Shown piece after piece: positions 31,655 through 44,925 of a DNA stretch of 64,000 bases (its first letter is position 1; each line of letters begins with the position of its first letter). The position numbers and the translations under genes were made by a program. The notes under the pieces are model-generated. The model saw only the letters and a list, made by a program, of their open reading frames with translations, was not told the DNA's origin and made no database searches. Source of the stretch: Rhodococcoides kyotonense (lineage in GTDB: Bacteria; Actinomycetota; Actinomycetes; Mycobacteriales; Mycobacteriaceae); NCBI RefSeq assembly GCF_900188125.1, contig NZ_FZOW01000006.1, positions 1 through 64,000 on the forward strand. Direction: 5' to 3'.

Positions 31655-31727
31655 GCCCCCGTAGCTCAGGGGATAGAGCGTTCGCCTCCGGAGCGAAAGG
31701 CCGCAGGTTCGAATCCTGCCGGGGGCA
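31655..31727 (+). tRNA. tRNA-Arg (anticodon CCG)
   Basis: A 73-base cloverleaf: acceptor GCCCCCG pairs with CGGGGGC, discriminator A, D arm GCTC/GAGC, anticodon loop CTCCGGA with CCG, and T arm GCAGG-TTCGAAT-CCTGC. It reads codon CGG. No CCA is encoded. A -10-like TAGTCT lies at 31636-31641. Confidence 0.97.
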
Positions 31728-31751
31728 CACATTCTTTGCGAGTATTGCGGT

Positions 31752-32642
31752 GTGCCCGATCAAGTCGATGTCGACGAGGTAGCCGACGAGCTGTATGCGC
31801 TCGATCCATCCGAGTTCGTTGCCGCACGCAAGGACGCCGTTGCCCGCGCGCGTCAGGCAGGCGACCGTAAGACAACAACCGCTATCGGGGCGCTGCGCAA
31901 ACCCACCGTGGTCGGGTGGATGGTCAACCTACTGGTTCGCGAGGAACCGGAGGACATCGCCGAATTGTTCGACCTCGGCGACAGTCTGCGCGACGCTCAA
32001 AGACGTTCCGCGACCGACGCGCTCAAGGAACTCTCCGGAGCCCGACAGCAGGCGATACGGGCGCTGACGCGTCGAGCAGTGAAGATCGCGGCCGAGCACG
32101 GCAAGCCTGGTGCCGACGCGGAGCGCGAAATCGGCCAGACCCTGAACGCGGCTCTCGCCGATCCGGAGATCGCCGAGCGGGTGCGCGCGGGGCGCGTCGT
32201 GACCGCGGAGTCGTACAGCGGGTTCGGTCCGGCGATGTTGACGCTGGCGCCGGATCCGGAAGAGCCCGCCGAGGACGAGGTCGTCGCCCAGGAAGAGGAC
32301 GATTCCGTCGACCAGGAGGCTCTCGAGCGAGCCAAGGAGCTGCTCGACCAAGCCCAGGAAGAGCTCGACGACGCGAGGGAGGACGAGGCGTCCGCGCGCG
32401 TGGCCGCCGAATCCGCCCGTGTAGAAGCGGAATCCGCCGAGGAGAGTCTCGCCGAGGTCAAGGAACGCCTCGCTCGCTTGAGGGACGAACTACACGAGGC
32501 CGAGGAGCAGGAGGCCGACGCGCGTCGGGCCGTGAAGTCGACCGATCGTGAAGCACGGCGGCTGAAGAGAGTGCTCACCGACGCCGAAGCGCGGACGGAG
32601 GAAGCACAGAACGCCGTGGACCGCGCTACGCAGGCTCGATGA
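31752..32642 (+). CDS. Conserved hypothetical coiled-coil protein
   Basis: A 296-residue acidic protein with no recognised family. The N-terminal part (1-110) is helical with VADELYALDPSEFVAARKDA. From about residue 185 onward a long coiled coil rich in Glu, Ala and Arg covers the rest (QEALERAKELLDQAQEELDD and following). GTG 31752 begins 24 bases after the tRNA, so it may be co-transcribed. Its 3' end overlaps convergent cysQ by 17 bases. No signal peptide or membrane helix; function unknown. Confidence 0.78.
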   Translation: MPDQVDVDEVADELYALDPSEFVAARKDAVARARQAGDRKTTTAIGALRKPTVVGWMVNLLVREEPEDIAELFDLGDSLRDAQRRSATDALKELSGARQQAIRALTRRAVKIAAEHGKPGADAEREIGQTLNAALADPEIAERVRAGRVVTAESYSGFGPAMLTLAPDPEEPAEDEVVAQEEDDSVDQEALERAKELLDQAQEELDDAREDEASARVAAESARVEAESAEESLAEVKERLARLRDELHEAEEQEADARRAVKSTDREARRLKRVLTDAEARTEEAQNAVDRATQAR

Positions 32643-33720
32643 TCGCGGTGATGGCAGTGATGTCGCCTGCCGGGATCTCGAAGTGCTCGGTGACGGACAC
32701 GGTGATTCCGCCGTCGAGGTCGAGCAGATAGCGCCCGACGACGTTGCTTCCCCATTCGCGCAGATTTAGCTCGCGCACTGCGACGATGGGCTTGTACTGC
32801 TGGCCCTGCTCCAGGTCGTCGCAGATGAATTGCCCTGTGTCGCCGGTGCTTCGGCCGTTCTCGACACGGCGGCACGCGTCGGCGAGTCGTAGTTTGGTGG
32901 CGTCGTGGCTGACGAGAGCCTTGATGTATTCGCGCGCCATCGCGACACGTCCGGAATCGGCCTCGCGGGTGGCGTGCGTCGCGATTCCACGCAGGAGCGG
33001 CTCGGCGAGTTCGGGGCGGCAGATCAGGAGATCCGGAACGTACGGGTGAGAGTTGTTGTACGTCAACGGCTCTCCGTCGATGCGCGAGCAGTGCAGTCCA
33101 GCTGCCAGCGCCACCCCGACGGGCGCGGCCGAATCCCACTCCCACTGACCACCCGAATGGACGTACGCGTCGACGTCACCGCGTACCACCGCCATCGCCT
33201 TGGCACCGGCTGATCCCATCGTGACGACATCGCCGCCGACGTCCGCCGCCAGTGCGTCCATGTAATACGGCGGCCGGCTGTCGCTGACGACGAGCTGCGG
33301 CCTGCGATCGACCGCAGGCGACAGCGTCACGTCCGCAGTGGAGTAGACGACCCCCAGAGCCGGCTGCGCGACGGCAGATGCAGTCATCCCCTTCCCTGCC
33401 TCCCACAGGCCCACGTGAACCGCCCAGTCGCCGCGACCGGCCATGCCGTATTCACGGGATCCATCGAGCGGGTCGATGATCCAGACTCGTGACGCGTCGA
33501 GCCTGGTGAGATCGTCGGCCGACTCCTCGGACAGCACCGAATCTCCCGGTCGCTCGGCCCGCACACGATTCAGAATCAGGTCGTTGGCCTGCGTGTCACC
33601 GAGTCGACCCAACTCACGTCCCCGCACGTCGCTGGTGTCGCGGATCCGGAGCAGAAGTTCCCCGGCCGCGCGCGCGACGTCGGCTGCGAATTCACTGTCC
33701 TGCTGTGTCGAATGCGTCAC
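32626..33720 (-). CDS. cysQ: 3'(2'),5'-bisphosphate nucleotidase CysQ fused to a C-terminal NTF2-like domain
   Basis: 364 residues in two parts. Residues 1 to about 250 are a CysQ/inositol-monophosphatase-type enzyme that hydrolyses PAP (and PAPS): LSEESADD, WIIDPLDGSREY and GQWEWDSAAPVGVALAAGL carry the metal ligands. Ordinary CysQ ends soon after PYVPDLLICRPE. Here the frame continues without a stop into about 105 further residues (MAREYIKALVSHDATKLRLA, RRVENGRSTGD..) resembling SnoaL/DUF8021 small domains. GTG 33720 overlaps the cysNC stop by 4 bases, so it is the third gene of the cysD operon. The enzyme call is firm; the role of the tail is unknown. Confidence 0.85.
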   Translation of the reverse strand: MTHSTQQDSEFAADVARAAGELLLRIRDTSDVRGRELGRLGDTQANDLILNRVRAERPGDSVLSEESADDLTRLDASRVWIIDPLDGSREYGMAGRGDWAVHVGLWEAGKGMTASAVAQPALGVVYSTADVTLSPAVDRRPQLVVSDSRPPYYMDALAADVGGDVVTMGSAGAKAMAVVRGDVDAYVHSGGQWEWDSAAPVGVALAAGLHCSRIDGEPLTYNNSHPYVPDLLICRPELAEPLLRGIATHATREADSGRVAMAREYIKALVSHDATKLRLADACRRVENGRSTGDTGQFICDDLEQGQQYKPIVAVRELNLREWGSNVVGRYLLDLDGGITVSVTEHFEIPAGDITAITAIIEPA

Positions 33721-35546
33721 GCGCCCAACAATTCCACAATACGAGCTGCTTGTGTCGTCGGATCGCCATCGGACGGGTGAAGAACGAGGTCGGCGTGGTC
33801 GGGAGTTTCGTACGGGTCGTCGACGCCGGTGAATCCGGTGATCTCACCGGCACGCGCCTTGGCGTACATACCTTTCGGGTCCCGCTCGGCACACACGTCG
33901 ACGGGCGTGTCGACATAGACCTCGAAGAACGGAAGGCCTGCTCGTTCGTGAATTCGACGCACCTCGTCGCGGTCGGTTCGATACGGGCTGATGAGGCACG
34001 CGATGGCGACGAGCCCCGCGTCGGACATCAGTTCGGCGACCTCGCCGACCCGTCGCACGTTCTCGGAGCGGCCGGCCCGGTCGAAGCCCAGGTCCGAATT
34101 GAGACCGTGCCTCAGGTTGTCGCCGTCGAGGCGATATGCAGGACGGCCCGACGCCACCAGAATCCGTTCGAGTTCCGCGGCGATCGTCGATTTGCCCGAC
34201 GCCGACAGCCCGGTCAGCCATACCGTCGCCCCTCGCGTCGCCCGATTCTCGCGCTCGACGCGCGCGGCATGCCACACGACGTTCGACGCCGCGAGCGCAG
34301 GCCCGCCGATCATTCCTGCTGCGACGGTGGCACCCGTGGTCTCGTCGACGAGCAAAAAGCTGCCGGTCACGCGATTGCGGCGATACGGGTCGAAGAACAG
34401 CGGATTCTGGGTTCTGATCCGCACTCGCCCGATGTCGTTGAGCGCCAACGCAGTCGAGCCCTTGTCGCGGTGGAGTGTGTCCACGTCCAGCCGATAGTCG
34501 AGCCGAGTGATGCGCGCGACCGTCGTGTTCGTCGTGTGCATCAGCATGTACCGGTCGTCGGTGCGCAGTTCGGAGCCCTCGGCGAGCCAACACACCATGG
34601 CGTCGATCTCCGTACCGATCTCGGGACGGTTGTTCGGCCTGCACAGCATGTCACCACGTCCGACGTCGAGTGCATCACCCAGTTCGATACACACCGCCGA
34701 CGACGCGAACCCCGCCGCCATGGACGCGCCGCCCGGCCCCCAGACCGCCGCGATGGTCGTCTGAAAACCGGAGGGCAGCACCACGACGTCGTCTCCGGGG
34801 GCGAAGGTTCCGCCCGCGACCGTCCCGGCCAGACCCCGGAAGTCACTGCCGTTCCTGGGCCTGACGACGTATTGGACCGGAAACCGCGCGTCGATGAGGT
34901 TGCGGTCCGACGCTACGTGCACGTCCTCGAGCAGGTGCAGCAGCGAGGCACCGGTGTACCAGGGCATCGACTGGGTTCGGTGCACGACGTTGTCGCCATC
35001 GCGGGCGCACATCGGGACGAACGTCAGATCGTGGACGTCGAGCTTGGCCGCGAACGCCGCGAAGTCGGCCTTGATCTCCTCGAACCTGTCCTCGGACCAG
35101 TCGACCAGGTCCATCTTGTTGATACACAACACGAGGTGCGCGATGCCGAGCAGCGACGCCAGAAACGCGTGGCGCTTCGTCTGCTGAAGCACGCCTGCCC
35201 GAGCGTCGACGAGAATCAGCGCGAGATCGGCCGTCGACGCACCCGTCACCATGTTGCGGGTGTACTGAACGTGGCCCGGGGTGTCCGCGATGATGAATGT
35301 CCTTCGCGGAGTGGAGAAGTAACGGTACGCGACGTCGATGGTAATGCCCTGCTCTCGCTCGGCGCGCAACCCGTCGGTCAGCAACGCGAGATCGGCGGCA
35401 TCGCCGCCACGTTCGCGCGACGAACGTTCCACCGCGTCCCACTGGTCCTCGAAGATCGCCTTCGAGTCGTACAGCAGCCTGCCGATCAACGTCGACTTGC
35501 CGTCGTCGACGCTGCCTGCAGTGGCGACCCTGAGCAGCTGCGACAT
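33717..35546 (-). CDS. cysN: Bifunctional sulfate adenylyltransferase large subunit / APS kinase (CysNC)
   Basis: A 609-residue fusion. Residues 1 to about 430 form the GTPase CysN, which drives ATP sulfurylase: G1 GSVDDGKSTLIGRLL, G3 DTPGH, G4 NKMD. Residues from about 440 form APS kinase CysC with P-loop GLSASGKSTIA and the DGDNLRHGLNSDLGF segment, producing PAPS. The same fusion is known in mycobacteria. ATG 35546 overlaps the cysD stop (TGATG). The downstream fused CysQ would dispose of PAP. Confidence 0.96.
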   Translation of the reverse strand: MSQLLRVATAGSVDDGKSTLIGRLLYDSKAIFEDQWDAVERSSRERGGDAADLALLTDGLRAEREQGITIDVAYRYFSTPRRTFIIADTPGHVQYTRNMVTGASTADLALILVDARAGVLQQTKRHAFLASLLGIAHLVLCINKMDLVDWSEDRFEEIKADFAAFAAKLDVHDLTFVPMCARDGDNVVHRTQSMPWYTGASLLHLLEDVHVASDRNLIDARFPVQYVVRPRNGSDFRGLAGTVAGGTFAPGDDVVVLPSGFQTTIAAVWGPGGASMAAGFASSAVCIELGDALDVGRGDMLCRPNNRPEIGTEIDAMVCWLAEGSELRTDDRYMLMHTTNTTVARITRLDYRLDVDTLHRDKGSTALALNDIGRVRIRTQNPLFFDPYRRNRVTGSFLLVDETTGATVAAGMIGGPALAASNVVWHAARVERENRATRGATVWLTGLSASGKSTIAAELERILVASGRPAYRLDGDNLRHGLNSDLGFDRAGRSENVRRVGEVAELMSDAGLVAIACLISPYRTDRDEVRRIHERAGLPFFEVYVDTPVDVCAERDPKGMYAKARAGEITGFTGVDDPYETPDHADLVLHPSDGDPTTQAARIVELLGA

Positions 35547-36448
35547 CAGAAGTAGCCTTCCTTCTTGCGATCTTCCATGCCCGTCTCCGAGATGCGGTCG
35601 TCGGCGCGCGTCGCACCGCGTTCGGTGGTTCGGGAGGCGGCGATCTCGGCGACGACGGCAGCAGCATCGGCAGCTGCGGACTGCACGCACCCCGTGCATG
35701 TTGCGTCGCCGACGGTTCGAAAACGGACGAGGGCCTCGAAGGGCGCCTCGTCGGGATCGACGAAACGAGTTGCGGCGAGCAACATTCCGTCGCGCGCGAA
35801 GACCATTCGACGGTGTGCGTAATACAGGGGCGGAAGCACGATGCGCTCGGCGGCGATGTACTGCCAGATGTCGAGTTCGGTCCAGTTGGACAACGGGAAG
35901 ACACGACACTGCTCACCTCGTCGATGACGACCGTTGTACAGCTGCCACAGTTCCGGCCGCTGCTTGCGTGGATCCCACTGGCCGTGTTCGTCTCGAAAGC
36001 TGAAGACTCGCTCTTTGGCGCGCGCTTTCTCCTCGTCACGACGCGCTCCCCCGAACACGACGTCGAACCGGTTCTCCTCGATCGCTCGAAGCAATGTTCT
36101 GGTCTGCAGTCGGTTACGCGAACCGCCTGGCTCCTCGACGGAGCGGCCGGCGTCGAGGTCGTCCTGGACGCGGGCGACGAGCAACGAGACATCGAGGTCG
36201 GCGACGGTGCGGTCACGAAACTCGATGACCTCGTCGAAGTTGTGCCCGGTATCGATGTGCAACGCCGCGAACGGAATTCGCGCCGGCCAGAACGCCTTGG
36301 CCGCGACATGCAGCATGACGACGGAATCCTTGCCTCCCGAGAACAGCAGTACCGGGCGCTCGGCGGTGGCCGCCACCTCGCGGAAGATGTGCACTGCCTC
36401 GGCTTCCAGCGCGCCGAGATGCGACAGCTCGTAGTCGGTCGAGGTCAC
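35546..36448 (-). CDS. cysD: Sulfate adenylyltransferase subunit 2
   Basis: The 300-residue ATP pyrophosphatase subunit of sulfate adenylyltransferase, acting with CysN to make APS. The PP-loop LLFSGGKDSVVMLH and the later RRDEEKARAKERVFSFRD are diagnostic. GTG 36448 is selected because AGGGAGGG precedes it by about seven bases and homologues begin shortly before YELSHLGALEAEA; the frame upstream to 36493 has no site. It is first in cysD-cysNC-cysQ and divergent from the sulfotransferase set. Confidence 0.96.
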   Translation of the reverse strand: MTSTDYELSHLGALEAEAVHIFREVAATAERPVLLFSGGKDSVVMLHVAAKAFWPARIPFAALHIDTGHNFDEVIEFRDRTVADLDVSLLVARVQDDLDAGRSVEEPGGSRNRLQTRTLLRAIEENRFDVVFGGARRDEEKARAKERVFSFRDEHGQWDPRKQRPELWQLYNGRHRRGEQCRVFPLSNWTELDIWQYIAAERIVLPPLYYAHRRMVFARDGMLLAATRFVDPDEAPFEALVRFRTVGDATCTGCVQSAAADAAAVVAEIAASRTTERGATRADDRISETGMEDRKKEGYF

Positions 36449-36492
36449 CCCACCCTCCCTGATAGAACTCGTTACACCACCGCGGGCGCACA

Positions 36493-36521
36493 TTGACCAC
36501 GCGCGATGCTTATCATAGTCT
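36493..36521 (+). promoter_or_regulatory. Promoter of the DUF1214/SDR/sulfotransferase operon
   Basis: TTGACC (36493-36498) and TAGTCT (36516-36521) are separated by 17 bases, a good vegetative promoter. The expected start of transcription falls at about 36528, immediately before the KstR-like operator. Confidence 0.6.
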
Positions 36522-36528
36522 CACATAC

Positions 36529-36542
36529 TAGAACCTGTTCTA
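36529..36542 (+). promoter_or_regulatory. KstR-type operator
   Basis: TAGAACCTGTTCTA fits the published KstR consensus TNNAACNNGTTNNA at every fixed position and is a palindrome apart from its two central bases. It starts about one base after the expected transcription start of the rightward operon, a position fit for repression. The cysD start lies about 80 bases to the other side, so an effect there is possible but unproven. Confidence 0.7.
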
Positions 36543-36566
36543 TTTATACGGAACGAGGAGATGCGA

Positions 36567-37727
36567 GTGCTCACCGACCCACTTGCCGACGCGATCGTCA
36601 CCGCAGAGAAGATCATCGAGGACGCGCCTCATGTTCGGGACGAGCGGGACCTTGCCGAGGGCTACGACTACCTGGCCGGCAACATCCGGGCATCGATCCA
36701 GATGGCGTGGGCGTACGACCCCGACTTTCCCTTCTTCGCATCGTCCACCGGTCCGTACACCAAGATGGGCCTCGACAACCCCGACACACTGTACTTCCAC
36801 GCGAACATTCGTGACGACCAGGAATACGTCGTGTCCGGAAGGCGCGGTACCACAACCGATCTCAGCTTCCAGATCCTGAAGGGCGACTACTCCCCCGTCG
36901 ATGTGCCGGACAGCCTCACCGCGTTCGACGATCGGCAGATCCACATCGACGCCGACGGGGCGTTCGAACTACATTTCGGGCGGGCATCGGACCTGCCGAA
37001 CCACTTCACTCTCGGACCCGGGTCGTCGATGCTCGTCGTGCGGGAGGTCTACAGCGACTGGTCGGCCGAGCGCGGCACCCTGACCATTCGACGGGCAGGG
37101 AGCGAAGGAGAGTCACCCGAGCCGGTGTCGAAAGACTCTGTTGCCAAGCGATATTCGACGGCAGGCAAGATGCTCCTAGGTCGGTTGAACACGTTTCTGC
37201 AGTTCCCGCAGTGGTTCTATCTCGACCTCGACGTCAACACGATGACCGAACCACGGTTGACGCCAGGTGGACTCAGCACTCAGTACTCGTCGGCCGGGCA
37301 CTACGAACTGACCGCCGATCAGGCGATGATCATCACCGTCCCGAAATCCGATGCGCCGTACCAAGGATTCCAGCTCGGCAGCCTGTGGTACATCTCCCTC
37401 GACTACATCGACCATCAGACGTCGCTGACGTCGGAGCAGGCACAGACGGATCCGGACGGGAACATCAGACTCGTCGTCAGCGAACGAAATCCTCACGTGG
37501 CCAACTGGATCGAGACCACCGGACATGCCCGCGGGTACGCCCAGTTCCGGTGGCAGCGTGTGGCACGGGAGATGACGGCAGCCGACGGACCGAGCGTCGA
37601 GGTGGTCGACTTCGATCAGGTGGCCTCGCGCCTGCCCTACTACGAGCAGAACAAGATCTCGGCCGAGGACTTCGCCCGTCGCATCACCGCACGACGTGAT
37701 GCCGTAGCCGCGCGGATGCTCGGATGA
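36567..37727 (+). CDS. DUF1214-like protein (Rv3531c-type), KstR-linked
   Basis: About 386 residues, resembling the actinobacterial family of Rv3531c with DUF1214-like segments: NPDTLYFHANIRDDQEYVV, WFYLDLDVNTMTEPR and LGSLWYISLDYIDHQTSL. GTG 36567 is preferred because GGAG stands six bases upstream; for ATG 36561 the site would abut the codon. No catalytic motif is obvious and there is no signal peptide. It is first in an operon with an SDR and a sulfotransferase, the same trio as Rv3531c-Rv3530c-Rv3529c in the M. tuberculosis cholesterol region. A steroid-related role is inferred from the operator and synteny. Confidence 0.82.
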   Translation: MLTDPLADAIVTAEKIIEDAPHVRDERDLAEGYDYLAGNIRASIQMAWAYDPDFPFFASSTGPYTKMGLDNPDTLYFHANIRDDQEYVVSGRRGTTTDLSFQILKGDYSPVDVPDSLTAFDDRQIHIDADGAFELHFGRASDLPNHFTLGPGSSMLVVREVYSDWSAERGTLTIRRAGSEGESPEPVSKDSVAKRYSTAGKMLLGRLNTFLQFPQWFYLDLDVNTMTEPRLTPGGLSTQYSSAGHYELTADQAMIITVPKSDAPYQGFQLGSLWYISLDYIDHQTSLTSEQAQTDPDGNIRLVVSERNPHVANWIETTGHARGYAQFRWQRVAREMTAADGPSVEVVDFDQVASRLPYYEQNKISAEDFARRITARRDAVAARMLG

Positions 37728-38506
37728 CCGGCCTGCTCGACGGCAGGGTCGTCGTCGTATCAGGGGTGGGGCCCTCGCTGGGCAGATCGATCGCACTGCG
37801 GAGCGCTGCGGAGGGTGCCGACCTCGTACTGGCCGCGCGTACCCCGAGCTACCTCGACGACGTCGCGAAGGAGGTGGCCGGCCTCGGACGTCGGGCAGTG
37901 GTGATTCCCACCGACATCACCGACGAAGAATCGGCGACGAACCTCGCTGTCCGTGCCGTCGACGCCTACGGGCACGTCGATGCGCTGATCAACAACGCCT
38001 TCGCGATTCCGTCGATGAAAGACTTGGCCCACACAGCTTTCAGCTCGATCCAACGAGGACTCGAGCTGTCACTGTTCGGGACCCTGCGGCTGTCGCACCT
38101 GTTCACTCCTGCACTGACAGCGTCGCACGGCTCGATCGTCATGATCAACTCGGCGGTGATCAGGCACTCCCAGCCGAAATACGGTGGGTACAAGATCGCC
38201 AAGGCGTCGTTGCTGGCAATGTCGCAAACCCTGGCGAGCGAGCTCGGCCCGCACGGGATACGCGTCAATACTGTTGCACCGGGCTACATCTGGGGTGAGA
38301 CGCTGCAGGGATACTTCGCGCACATGGCACAGAAGTACGGGACGACGAGCGAGCAGATATACGAGCAGACCGCGTCGGCGATCGATCTTCGTCGTCTCCC
38401 CGAACCCGACGAGGTCGCCGACGCCGTCGTGTTTCTCGCGTCGTCGCGAGCGCGTGCGATCACCGGCCAATGCCTCGACGTCAACTGCGGCGAATACCAC
38501 CACTAG
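37724..38506 (+). CDS. Short-chain dehydrogenase/reductase (Rv3530c-type)
   Basis: A 260-residue classical SDR. The cofactor motif is VSGVGPSLGRS (a variant of TGxxxGxG), followed by NNAF and the catalytic pair YGGYK with upstream Ser in MINSAVIRHS; the HGIRVNTVAPGYIWG segment is typical. ATG 37724 overlaps the previous stop by 4 bases. By its operon and KstR-like operator it would act on a steroid or related hydroxyl/keto group; substrate not shown. Confidence 0.9.
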   Translation: MTGLLDGRVVVVSGVGPSLGRSIALRSAAEGADLVLAARTPSYLDDVAKEVAGLGRRAVVIPTDITDEESATNLAVRAVDAYGHVDALINNAFAIPSMKDLAHTAFSSIQRGLELSLFGTLRLSHLFTPALTASHGSIVMINSAVIRHSQPKYGGYKIAKASLLAMSQTLASELGPHGIRVNTVAPGYIWGETLQGYFAHMAQKYGTTSEQIYEQTASAIDLRRLPEPDEVADAVVFLASSRARAITGQCLDVNCGEYHH

Positions 38507-38514
38507 GAGTTGCC

Positions 38515-39666
38515 ATGACCAGCACGGAACGCACCGATGTCGGCACAGTGGAGGACTTGCACGCGTCGGCGACACGGGTGACGGGGTTGTCGGATTTCGG
38601 CGACGACGACTACGTGGAAGCGCTTGGCGTGCTGCTGGATTCGTACAGTCGGGATGCGGAGCTGACGGCACTGGGGTCGAAAATGAACCGCTACTTCCTG
38701 CGCGGTGCGCTCGTTGCTCGGTTGCTGAGCGAACAATCGTGGAAGCAGAATCCGGAGTATGCGTCGGTCCCGATCGACCGGCCTATCTTCGTCACCGGGT
38801 TGCCACGTACGGGAACCACTGCGCTGCACCGACTTCTGACTGTCGACCCGTCGCACCAGGGATTGGAGATGTGGCTGACGGAGGTGCCACAGCCTCGGCC
38901 GCCGCGTTCGGGGTGGGAAGCGAATCCGGTGTTCGCCGGAATCGAGAAGGGATTCGAACAGCATCACGTCGAACACCCCGAATTCATGGGTGTGCACTAC
39001 ATGTCGGCCGCCGAGGTCGAGGAATGCTGGCAGCTGCTCCGGCAGTCCGTGCATTCCATCGCCTACGAGTGTCTGGCGTATCTGCCGACGTACTCGTCGT
39101 GGCTCGCCGAGCAGAGTTGGCTCGGTGCGTACGGTCGGCACCGTCGCAACCTGCAGCTCATCGGATTGCACGACGCCGACCGACGGTGGGTGCTCAAGAA
39201 CCCGAGCCACCTCTTCGCACTCGACGAGTTGCTGCAGGTCTACCCGGACGCACTCGTCATCCAGATGCACCGCGAACCGCGCACGATCATGCCGTCGATG
39301 TGCAGTCTCGCCGAACACGCGACGGCAGGCTGGAGTGAGAAATTCGTCGGCGACGTCATCGGCAGTACCCAGCTGGACCTGTGGGAGCGGGGGTTGGGAA
39401 TGTTCGCGGCTGCTCGGGCCCGGGCTGATTCAGCCCAGTTCTACGACGTCGACTACCACGACTTCGTCGCCGACCCCCTCGGCACCGTCGAGCGGGTGTA
39501 CCTCCATTTCGGTCTGGACCTGACCTCGGACGCTCGCGAACAGATGGAGGCCATGCACGCCGATAGCCGCCGCGGGGGTCGAAAGCCTGCGCACAAGTAC
39601 ACCCTCGGGGACTTCGGGCTCGACGGTGACGAGGTCGACCGGCGGTTGGGTGTGGGAGGTGGCTGA
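38515..39666 (+). CDS. PAPS-dependent sulfotransferase family protein (Rv3529c-type)
   Basis: A 383-residue protein of the sulfotransferase P-loop family. The 5'-phosphosulfate-binding loop is FVTGLPRTGTTALHRLL (about residues 92-108). The region WVLKNPSHLFALDELLQVYP and QMHREPRTIMPSM includes the 3'-phosphate-binding Arg/Ser segment. ATG 38515 has AGGAG upstream and starts 8 bases after the SDR stop; a longer frame from 38470 would overlap the SDR. PAPS made by the adjacent cysD-cysNC would be its donor and PAP its by-product. Acceptor unknown. Confidence 0.88.
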   Translation: MTSTERTDVGTVEDLHASATRVTGLSDFGDDDYVEALGVLLDSYSRDAELTALGSKMNRYFLRGALVARLLSEQSWKQNPEYASVPIDRPIFVTGLPRTGTTALHRLLTVDPSHQGLEMWLTEVPQPRPPRSGWEANPVFAGIEKGFEQHHVEHPEFMGVHYMSAAEVEECWQLLRQSVHSIAYECLAYLPTYSSWLAEQSWLGAYGRHRRNLQLIGLHDADRRWVLKNPSHLFALDELLQVYPDALVIQMHREPRTIMPSMCSLAEHATAGWSEKFVGDVIGSTQLDLWERGLGMFAAARARADSAQFYDVDYHDFVADPLGTVERVYLHFGLDLTSDAREQMEAMHADSRRGGRKPAHKYTLGDFGLDGDEVDRRLGVGGG

Positions 39667-39759: not shown

Positions 39760-40350
39760 ATGGCCCCGACACGATGGCAGAGCGAGAACACCGAGGACCA
39801 ATCGCGGCAGTACGTCCGACGCTTCGACAGGCTCGAGGCGTCGGGAGTCGATCTACACGGTGAAGCGCGGATGGTCGATGCAGTGGTGGCCCCCGGGAGT
39901 TCGATACTCGACGCCGGTTGTGGCACAGCACGTCTCGGCGCGGAACTCGCGAGGAGGGGTCATACGGTCACCGCCGTCGACCTCGATCCGGTGTTCGTCG
40001 AGGCCGCGCGAGCGCACACTGCGATCACGGTGCACCAGGCGGATCTGACTGCACTCGAACTGGGCGAGACCTTCGATTGCGTGGTCGCCGCGGGCAATGT
40101 CATGGTCTTCATGACGCCAGGGACCGAGCGAGCAGCACTCGAACGCATTGCGGCACATATGAACCCGACTGCAGTATTCGTTGCCGGCTTCGCGACGGAC
40201 CGGCAGTACACCGTCGAGCAATTCGACGACGACCTCGCCGCCGCGGGCTTACGCGTCGAACAGCGGTTTGCGACGTGGGATCTGCGGACGTGGCACGACG
40301 GCGCGGACTGGGCCGTCACGGTTGCTCGCCCCTCCGGACTACTGGCCTGA
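39760..40350 (+). CDS. Class I SAM-dependent methyltransferase
   Basis: A 196-residue protein with the SAM motif I ILDAGCGTARLGAELARRG, the acidic residue after strand 2 (VTAVDLDPVFVEAA) and ADLTALELGETFDCVV. Small-molecule methyltransferase fold without a recognisable substrate domain. It is separated from the upstream operon by hairpins and overlaps the convergent PadR gene by 12 bases. Substrate unknown. Confidence 0.85.
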   Translation: MAPTRWQSENTEDQSRQYVRRFDRLEASGVDLHGEARMVDAVVAPGSSILDAGCGTARLGAELARRGHTVTAVDLDPVFVEAARAHTAITVHQADLTALELGETFDCVVAAGNVMVFMTPGTERAALERIAAHMNPTAVFVAGFATDRQYTVEQFDDDLAAAGLRVEQRFATWDLRTWHDGADWAVTVARPSGLLA

Positions 40351-44148: not shown

Positions 44149-44925
44149 TCAGCGGTTGACGAACTTGGCTTGCCGCTTCTCGACGAACGCGGCCATGCCT
44201 TCCTTCTGGTCCTCGGTGGCGAACGTCGAGTGGAACAGTCGACGTTCGAACCGAACGCCCTCTGCCAGAGACGATTCGAACGACCGATTCACGGCGTCCT
44301 TCGCCATCATCGCAACAGGAAGCGACATTTCCGCGATGGTCGCCGCGGTCTTGATGGCGTCGTCGAGCAGTTCGGCCGCAGGCACGATGCGTGAGACGAG
44401 TCCCGCGCGTTCGGCCTCCTCGACCTTCATGTTCCGTCCGGTCAGCACCATCTCCATCGCCTTGGCCTTGCCGACCGCGCGTGTGAGTCGCTGTGAGCCA
44501 CCGATTCCCGGGATGACGCCGAGCTTGATCTCGGGCTGACCGAACACCGCGGTGTCCGACGCGATCAGGACGTCGCAGATCATCGCAAGTTCGCATCCGC
44601 CACCGAGCGCATACCCGGATACGGCCGCCACGATGGGTGTACGGGCTGCGGACAGGCGATCCCAGGCGCTGAAGAAGTCTTCCTGGTACACATCCATGTA
44701 CGACTTCGGCTGCATCTCCTTGATGTCTGCGCCCGCCGCGAATGCCTTCTCCGACCCGGTGATCAGGATCGCGCCGATGCCCTGATCCGCGTCGAATTCC
44801 TCGACGACGGACACGACTTCGCGCATGAGCTCGGAGTTCAACGCGTTCAACGCCTTCGGGCGGTTGAGCGTGATGATTCCGACGCGTCCGCGGCGTTCCG
44901 TCAGGATGGTCTGGTAGTCCGTCAT
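44149..44925 (-). CDS. Enoyl-CoA hydratase
   Basis: A 258-residue crotonase-family enzyme close in length and motifs to mycobacterial EchA8. Oxyanion-hole residues are in [12 protein letters not shown] and [12 protein letters not shown], with both catalytic glutamates in the expected places ([20 protein letters not shown]). ATG 44925 overlaps the mmsB stop by 4 bases. As last gene of the valine operon it would hydrate methacrylyl-CoA (inference from context). Confidence 0.93.

Follow-up and report, generated by a model that had tools for sequence, protein, structure and literature searches.

The window analysed here, the whole stretch of 64,000 nucleotides at positions 1 to 64,000 of contig NZ_FZOW01000006.1 of Rhodococcoides kyotonense, contains two divergent gene groups on either side of a short intergenic region. 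One group consists of three genes, hereafter the trio, encoding an Rv3531c-type protein, a short-chain dehydrogenase/reductase (SDR) and a sulfotransferase; the other comprises cysD, cysNC and a cysQ-type gene, predicted to act in sulfate activation and in the removal of its by-product. We judge it about 75% probable that these genes form a sulfation module under the control of the steroid repressor KstR, in which synthesis of the sulfate donor 3'-phosphoadenosine 5'-phosphosulfate (PAPS), sulfate transfer and removal of 3'-phosphoadenosine 5'-phosphate (PAP) serve the sulfation of a steroid-derived or steroid-induced alcohol. For this strain, KstR control is predicted from the operator motif, its conservation and published mycobacterial data, and the putative enzyme activities are those of the families to which the proteins belong.

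Operators, promoter and the KstR gene

A preliminary description of this DNA had placed a promoter TTGACC-17-TAGTCT in front of the trio with a palindrome at about +1, and both direct reading and a script confirmed its coordinates. The palindrome, TAGAACCTGTTCTA, was thought to fit the KstR consensus TNNAACNNGTTNNA. Scored with a matrix built from 43 distinct sites in Table 3 of Kendall 2007 (PMC1995591), which themselves range from 12.6 to 25.2 bits with a median of 22.3, it indeed reaches 22.7 bits, and 0.16 sites of that score or higher are expected by chance in the 6.3 Mb genome, assuming independent bases. The genome holds 57 consensus matches versus 31 matches to a reversed control pattern. 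The matrix was applied to these consensus matches, a ranking suggested earlier as a check on the site, and the trio operator stands eighth among the 54 of the 57 that were listed. High-ranking matches adjoin steroid genes, namely kstR, an acyl-CoA dehydrogenase gene, hsaA, kstD, a steroid thiolase gene and an Rv3520c-type gene. The operator is moreover one of five perfect palindromes TAGAACNNGTTCTA genome-wide, and the consensus occurs three times in the window versus 0.15 times on average over 100 shuffles. A chance motif is ruled out by the window shuffles, the five perfect genomic copies and the low chance expectation for its score.

The cysD-proximal side of the intergenic region carries a second site, absent from the preliminary description, TAGAACTCGTTACA, 15 bases 5' of the cysD start, whose counterpart in L016/L050 is TGGAACTCGTTACA. 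At 15.6 bits, a level at which 10 sites are expected by chance in the genome, it is unsupported as a strong stand-alone operator, and taken alone it is weak and not significant. The third consensus match in the window, TTCAACGCGTTCAA (44837-44850), lies within predicted coding DNA and is probably a chance occurrence.

KstR control presupposes a KstR gene, and an orthologue is encoded at L003:11764-12444 (292 bits to PDB 5ua2, an entry named KstR), with a perfect site 5' of its own start and an acyl-CoA dehydrogenase gene divergent to it. Within the genus, KstR was matched (E up to 1e-40) in 16 of 37 genomes, namely all 14 with the first trio gene plus two of the 23 others. Further good KstR-type sites in the genome of the window (L010:5656, L007:4938 and L004:5807) neighbour wax ester synthase/diacylglycerol acyltransferase, molybdopterin oxidoreductase and luciferase-like monooxygenase genes.

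The arrangement recurs in relatives. The pattern TTGACC-17/18-TAnnnT was found in 27 of the 31 upstream regions listed, with TTGACG in one more and neither in the remaining three. Upstream of the first trio gene, the full KstR consensus is present in 14/14 genus loci, in 18 of the 20 non-genus loci L065-L084 and in 18 of 19 further named loci; it was not found there in L079, L081 and L104. In most relatives the operator occupies the spacer between the -35 and -10 boxes, while the window and L050 have it at +1. On the other arm, 28 of 32 trio-linked loci have a site above 15 bits within 200 bp 5' of cysD, the site counted for the window and L050 being the operator shared with the trio. No site above 15 bits was found within 200 bp of cysD at the two paralogous loci of the same genome, and 45 of 3000 random windows, drawn from loci that had been fetched for a match, reach 15 bits. 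Judged by its sites, the cysDNC(Q) arm would thus belong to the KstR regulon, in the window by way of the shared operator and the weak second site.

A sulfate-activation arm that accompanies the trio

The genome contains three CysD loci with three different partners: the window locus with the trio and cysQ, C25 with a trehalose 2-sulfotransferase and C45 with cysH. At C45, cysH is accompanied by a sulfite/nitrite-reductase-type gene and by a CysN that matches only to residue 422 and has no adenosine 5'-phosphosulfate (APS) kinase part; cysH and sulfite reductase genes were looked for beside the cysD of the window and not found there. C25 (L063, G000:C25:119000-137000) combines CysD-CysNC with the trehalose 2-sulfotransferase (428 bits, cut-off 400) and represents a second sulfation locus, which also contains a sulfatase-like gene scoring below its cut-offs. 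CysD of the window type (at least 81% identity) occurs in 14 of the 37 genus genomes, which are exactly those with the first trio gene, and in 0/23 of the remainder, where the best CysD reaches at most 66% identity. In a tree of 79 CysD rows, a cysH-linked group of 20 rows (100/100) and an Stf0-linked group of 10 rows (94/86) stand apart from the rest, made up of trio-linked rows and unlinked copies including the CysD of three Mycobacterium genomes; the rooting of the tree is meaningless owing to the very long row L143. We conclude that cysD-cysNC-cysQ of the window is a dedicated paralogue set, distinct from ordinary sulfate assimilation, that would supply the donor of the sulfotransferase. 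As a separate observation, the three Mycobacterium sequences (L127-L129) group with the trio-linked and not with the cysH-linked type, which suggests that Mycobacterium kept the sulfation-type CysD while uncoupling it from the trio.

Linkage was followed across relatives after excluding from the counts L085-L092 and L110, which are copies of genus genomes already counted, and L113, a 27% match. In the genus, matches to the first trio gene, SDR, sulfotransferase, CysD, CysNC and CysQ are present in 14/14 loci, with the arms divergent. CysD and CysNC are linked in 18 of the 20 loci L065-L084, divergently in 17 and on the same strand in L081. CysD linkage was typed for the best 95 non-genus matches, and in 85 of these CysD lies within 4 kb of the match, always divergently. 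Eight of the other ten rows belong to genus g10, where CysD was found 6-11 kb off and on the same strand in the four inspected; G218 proved divergent and linked after all, and G099 has no CysD of the window type. Counting these 95 matches, G061 and the genus itself, the divergent pairing of trio and cysD extends over 10 genera. The layout of the window prevails among the relatives examined, which rules out the trio as an oddity of one genome.

These observations can be combined into a mechanism. KstR ligands are CoA thioesters of sterol intermediates. During sterol breakdown, such thioesters would detach KstR from the trio operator at +1 of its promoter and, for most relatives, also from a separate site 5' of cysD. 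CysD and CysNC would convert sulfate and ATP to APS and further to PAPS, the sulfotransferase would move the sulfate group onto an alcohol, and CysQ would clear the PAP that is left over. The SDR and the DUF1214-type protein would probably make or handle the alcohol acceptor, for which a steroid-derived intermediate is the most likely candidate.

A number of findings weigh against such a module. No linked CysD was found in L083 and L084; L083 contains the IclR gene with the first and third trio genes, and we count it as unlinked because its contig extends 4.5 kb upstream with no CysD there, which slightly lowers our confidence in the module. The SDR was not matched in L075 and L083. In the stretches examined, 18/18 loci of Mycobacterium, Actinoplanes, Paractinoplanes and Salinispora combine a KstR-type site at the trio with the absence of CysD. 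The trio of Mycobacterium and Actinoplanes-type loci can thus do without a linked PAPS supply. KstR also occurs in two genus genomes that have no trio. Four of the 32 linked loci (L075, L079, L080 and L081) have no cysD site above 15 bits, and in the window itself the cysD-proximal site is weak. The 15-bit threshold was set after the genome-wide scores were known, and the Fisher p values of 2e-10 and 2e-8 ignore shared ancestry. Lastly, the two arms have an IclR-type gene between them in 9/14 genus loci and in 17/18 non-genus CysD-linked loci (its helix-turn-helix was tested in four of them), so KstR need not be the sole control.

Steroid context and alternative explanations

The identity of the acceptor is where explanations diverge most. 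In the Gordonia-like locus L081 the gene order runs kstD, hsaEGF-type genes, hsaA, hsaC, hsaB, trio, a DHA2-type major facilitator superfamily exporter gene 3' of the trio, a TetR gene, cysD, cysNC and an inositol-phosphatase-type gene, and its hsaA, hsaC and hsaB are NCBIfam equivalogs with scores above cut-off. Gordonia paraffinivorans L104 starts as L081 does, with CysD 6.7 kb further on. Of the 13 Mycobacterium-type loci compared (L084, L098-L103, L105-L109 and L111), 11 have kstD and hsaEGF-type genes upstream of the trio, the exceptions being L098, on a contig of 9.6 kb, and L100. A search for steroid marker genes (kstD, hsa-type) found none in the window or in the other detached loci; the matches obtained were weak ones, to HsaA in L088 (27%) and to FadA5 in Actinoplanes-type loci (42-47%). 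The preliminary description, which had seen no other steroid gene in the window, was therefore right on this point. Its picture of the trio as a detached member of the steroid regulon also gains from the strong operator, the KstR gene and the position of the mycobacterial trio behind kstD and hsaEGF-type genes. What did not hold is that the trio stands alone beside sulfate activation genes, as cysD-cysNC-cysQ are dedicated paralogues that travel with it and have KstR-type sites in most relatives.

Specified further, the module may be a sulfation branch that steroid-eating actinobacteria switch on with sterols, complete with PAPS supply and PAP removal and equivalent to the sulfation of steroids in animals. 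It would attach sulfate to a catabolic steroid alcohol, whether to activate this alcohol for an elimination step or to export or park it, and the exporter gene behind the trio of L081 would fit export; we advance this version tentatively, at somewhat less than even odds. The main competing proposal keeps the regulation and the PAPS supply and assigns as acceptor a cell-envelope lipid or another non-steroid needed more on sterols. We consider it unlikely, while acknowledging that no acceptor identity can be read from the sequence, that the genome has the parallel Stf0 locus, and that the known mycobacterial sulfotransferases described in PMC6469627 and PMC3141025 act on trehalose and menaquinone-type lipids. 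Against a non-steroid acceptor, the trio of Gordonia-like and Mycobacterium loci lies within a run of steroid ring genes or follows one, and an SDR in the trio would suit a steroid hydroxyl or ketone.

The IclR-type gene raises the question of whether KstR merely touches its sites while another regulator, this one or a different TetR, exerts the main control. The frequency of the gene between the arms, given above, favours such a scheme; we nevertheless think it improbable, as the sites fit the published KstR matrix and loci without the IclR gene still keep KstR-type sites. The gene is missing between the arms in the window, L050 and L059-L061, where both arms therefore share one short intergenic stretch, and no match to it was obtained (E up to 1e-20) in the genome of the window and four other trio-bearing genomes.

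Still less probable is that cysD-cysNC-cysQ serves general sulfate assimilation and has only its intergenic region in common with the trio. CysD of the window type can serve general needs, because it is carried by the Mycobacterium genomes examined and is the sole copy in two of three, and the weak cysD-proximal site of the window would also fit. A general role is disfavoured by the other CysD-CysN beside cysH in the same genome, by the co-occurrence with the trio (14/14 versus 0/23), by the CysD tree, and by the linkage over 10 genera with KstR-type sites at cysD. Finally, the sulfotransferase might run in reverse and desulfate steroid sulfates so that PAPS, sulfate or ATP is regained, since sulfotransferase chemistry is reversible in principle, a highly improbable option given that the linked CysQ, which destroys PAP, would remove the PAP needed and that CysNC makes new PAPS.

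Gene products and comparison with known systems

The features of the locus are collected in the table.

Table. Predicted features of the trio and the divergent sulfate-activation arm, in window coordinates
Feature	Position	Strand	Remarks
-35 box of the trio promoter, TTGACC	36493-36498	+	Direct reading and script
-10 box of the trio promoter, TAGTCT	36516-36521	+	17-base spacer; direct reading and script
KstR-type operator, TAGAACCTGTTCTA	36529-36542	none	22.7 bits; at about +1 to +14
Second, weaker KstR-type site, TAGAACTCGTTACA	36463-36476	none	15.6 bits; 15 bases 5' of cysD start
First trio gene, Rv3531c-type, remote DUF1214	36561-37727	+	Start ATG 36561 or GTG 36567
SDR, PRK07890 type, Rv3530c position	37724-38506	+	NF005909, 397.7 bits (cut-off 258)
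Sulfotransferase, Sulfotransfer_3, Rv3529c position	38515-39666	+	PF13469, 199 bits (cut-off 27)
cysD, ATP sulfurylase small subunit, trio-linked type	35546-36448	-	GTG start; TIGR02039, 435.9 bits (cut-off 396.6)
cysNC, ATP sulfurylase large subunit and APS kinase fusion	33717-35546	-	NF004035, 921 bits (cut-off 715)
cysQ-type PAP phosphatase, inositol monophosphatase family	32626-33720	-	PF00459, 102.9 bits

The trio genes overlap or almost abut (37724 against 37727; 38506 against 38515), and their order agrees with that of Rv3531c-Rv3530c-Rv3529c, as stated in the preliminary description. For the first gene, the start chosen earlier, GTG 36567, is favoured over ATG 36561 by its spacing to GAGGAG and by the first residues of aligned homologues. 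Its earlier DUF1214 label survives as a remote similarity: at 19.1 bits the protein scores below the Pfam cut-off of 25, and we therefore do not assign it to the family. Its only PDB match is 6ans (112.5 bits), an uncharacterized protein. The SDR matches PDB 3ucx with 323 bits. The sulfotransferase matches PDB 2zq5 with 564 bits over 374 residues, an entry that we take to be Stf1 (Rv3529c) of Mycobacterium tuberculosis and that is itself named only putative uncharacterized protein, with no function on record. The GLPRTGTT and HR...S stretches, presumably those that bind PAPS, are conserved in the homologue alignment apart from one V for P in L084, and the match to NoeE is weak (24.9 bits, cut-off 500). 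A methyltransferase-family gene (39760-40350, + strand) follows the sulfotransferase gene in 14/14 genus loci, and the search of non-genus loci gave no match to it; the operon may have acquired it in this genus only.

On the divergent arm, the APS kinase part of CysNC (PF01583, 222 bits) is of the PAPS-forming type. The cysQ gene overlaps cysNC by 4 bases, and its product matches PDB 5djf, a 3'-phosphoadenosine 5'-phosphate phosphatase, with 254 bits. A tRNA-Arg(ccg) gene (31655-31728, + strand) lies just past the cysQ end. Roles in PAPS synthesis, transfer and PAP removal are stated for M. tuberculosis in PMC3141025.

The literature searched assigns no reaction to the trio, although it has been in the mycobacterial KstR regulon since 2007. 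A private PAPS supply would point to a specific reaction open to experiment, namely PAPS-dependent sulfation linked to the use of steroids, and suggests that steroid-eating bacteria may also attach sulfate to something while feeding. If true, this would add a sulfur branch to bacterial steroid metabolism, predict that Rhodococcus-type bacteria contain sulfated steroid metabolites yet to be discovered, and link sulfate demand to growth on sterols. The partnership of cysD-cysNC-cysQ with a KstR-controlled trio appears to be new: a link between KstR and sulfate activation was not found in the open literature searched, with prior mention possible in subscription work on Rhodococcus steroid transcriptomes, and PMC3916317 contains both "KstR" and "sulfate adenylyltransferase".

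Two components of the module are already known from other systems. The first is KstR control of the homologous mycobacterial operon, for which PMC1995591 reports binding of KstR to the Rv3531c/Rv3532 site by electrophoretic mobility shift assay and a 6-fold rise without KstR of MSMEG_5932, marked there as the Rv3531c orthologue. The likeness extends to the trio order, kept in 16 of 17 Mycobacterium-type loci with all three matches, and to the KstR-type site in front. In contrast, the trio of the Mycobacterium loci examined lies inside a steroid cluster with no cysDNC adjacent, whereas that of the window is divergent from a dedicated cysD-cysNC-cysQ set and has no steroid marker genes found around it. 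The second is PAPS supply beside a sulfotransferase, as described for CysN2C-CysD2-Stf0 of Rhodococcus qingshengii IGTS8 (PMC8557817), where a PAPS-forming CysD-CysNC is likewise set apart from the assimilatory copy. There, however, CysD is of another type and the sulfotransferase, a trehalose 2-sulfotransferase, belongs to another family; in the counterpart of that locus in the genome of the window, the 200 bp next to cysD contain no KstR-type site.

Two more distant parallels may be drawn. In Nod-factor sulfation, nodPQ accompanies nodH, and donor synthesis is coupled to one sulfotransferase as proposed here, although the families and regulators are different ones. Animals have steroid sulfotransferases, which would share with the module the sulfation of steroids and differ from it in their protein families and their regulators.

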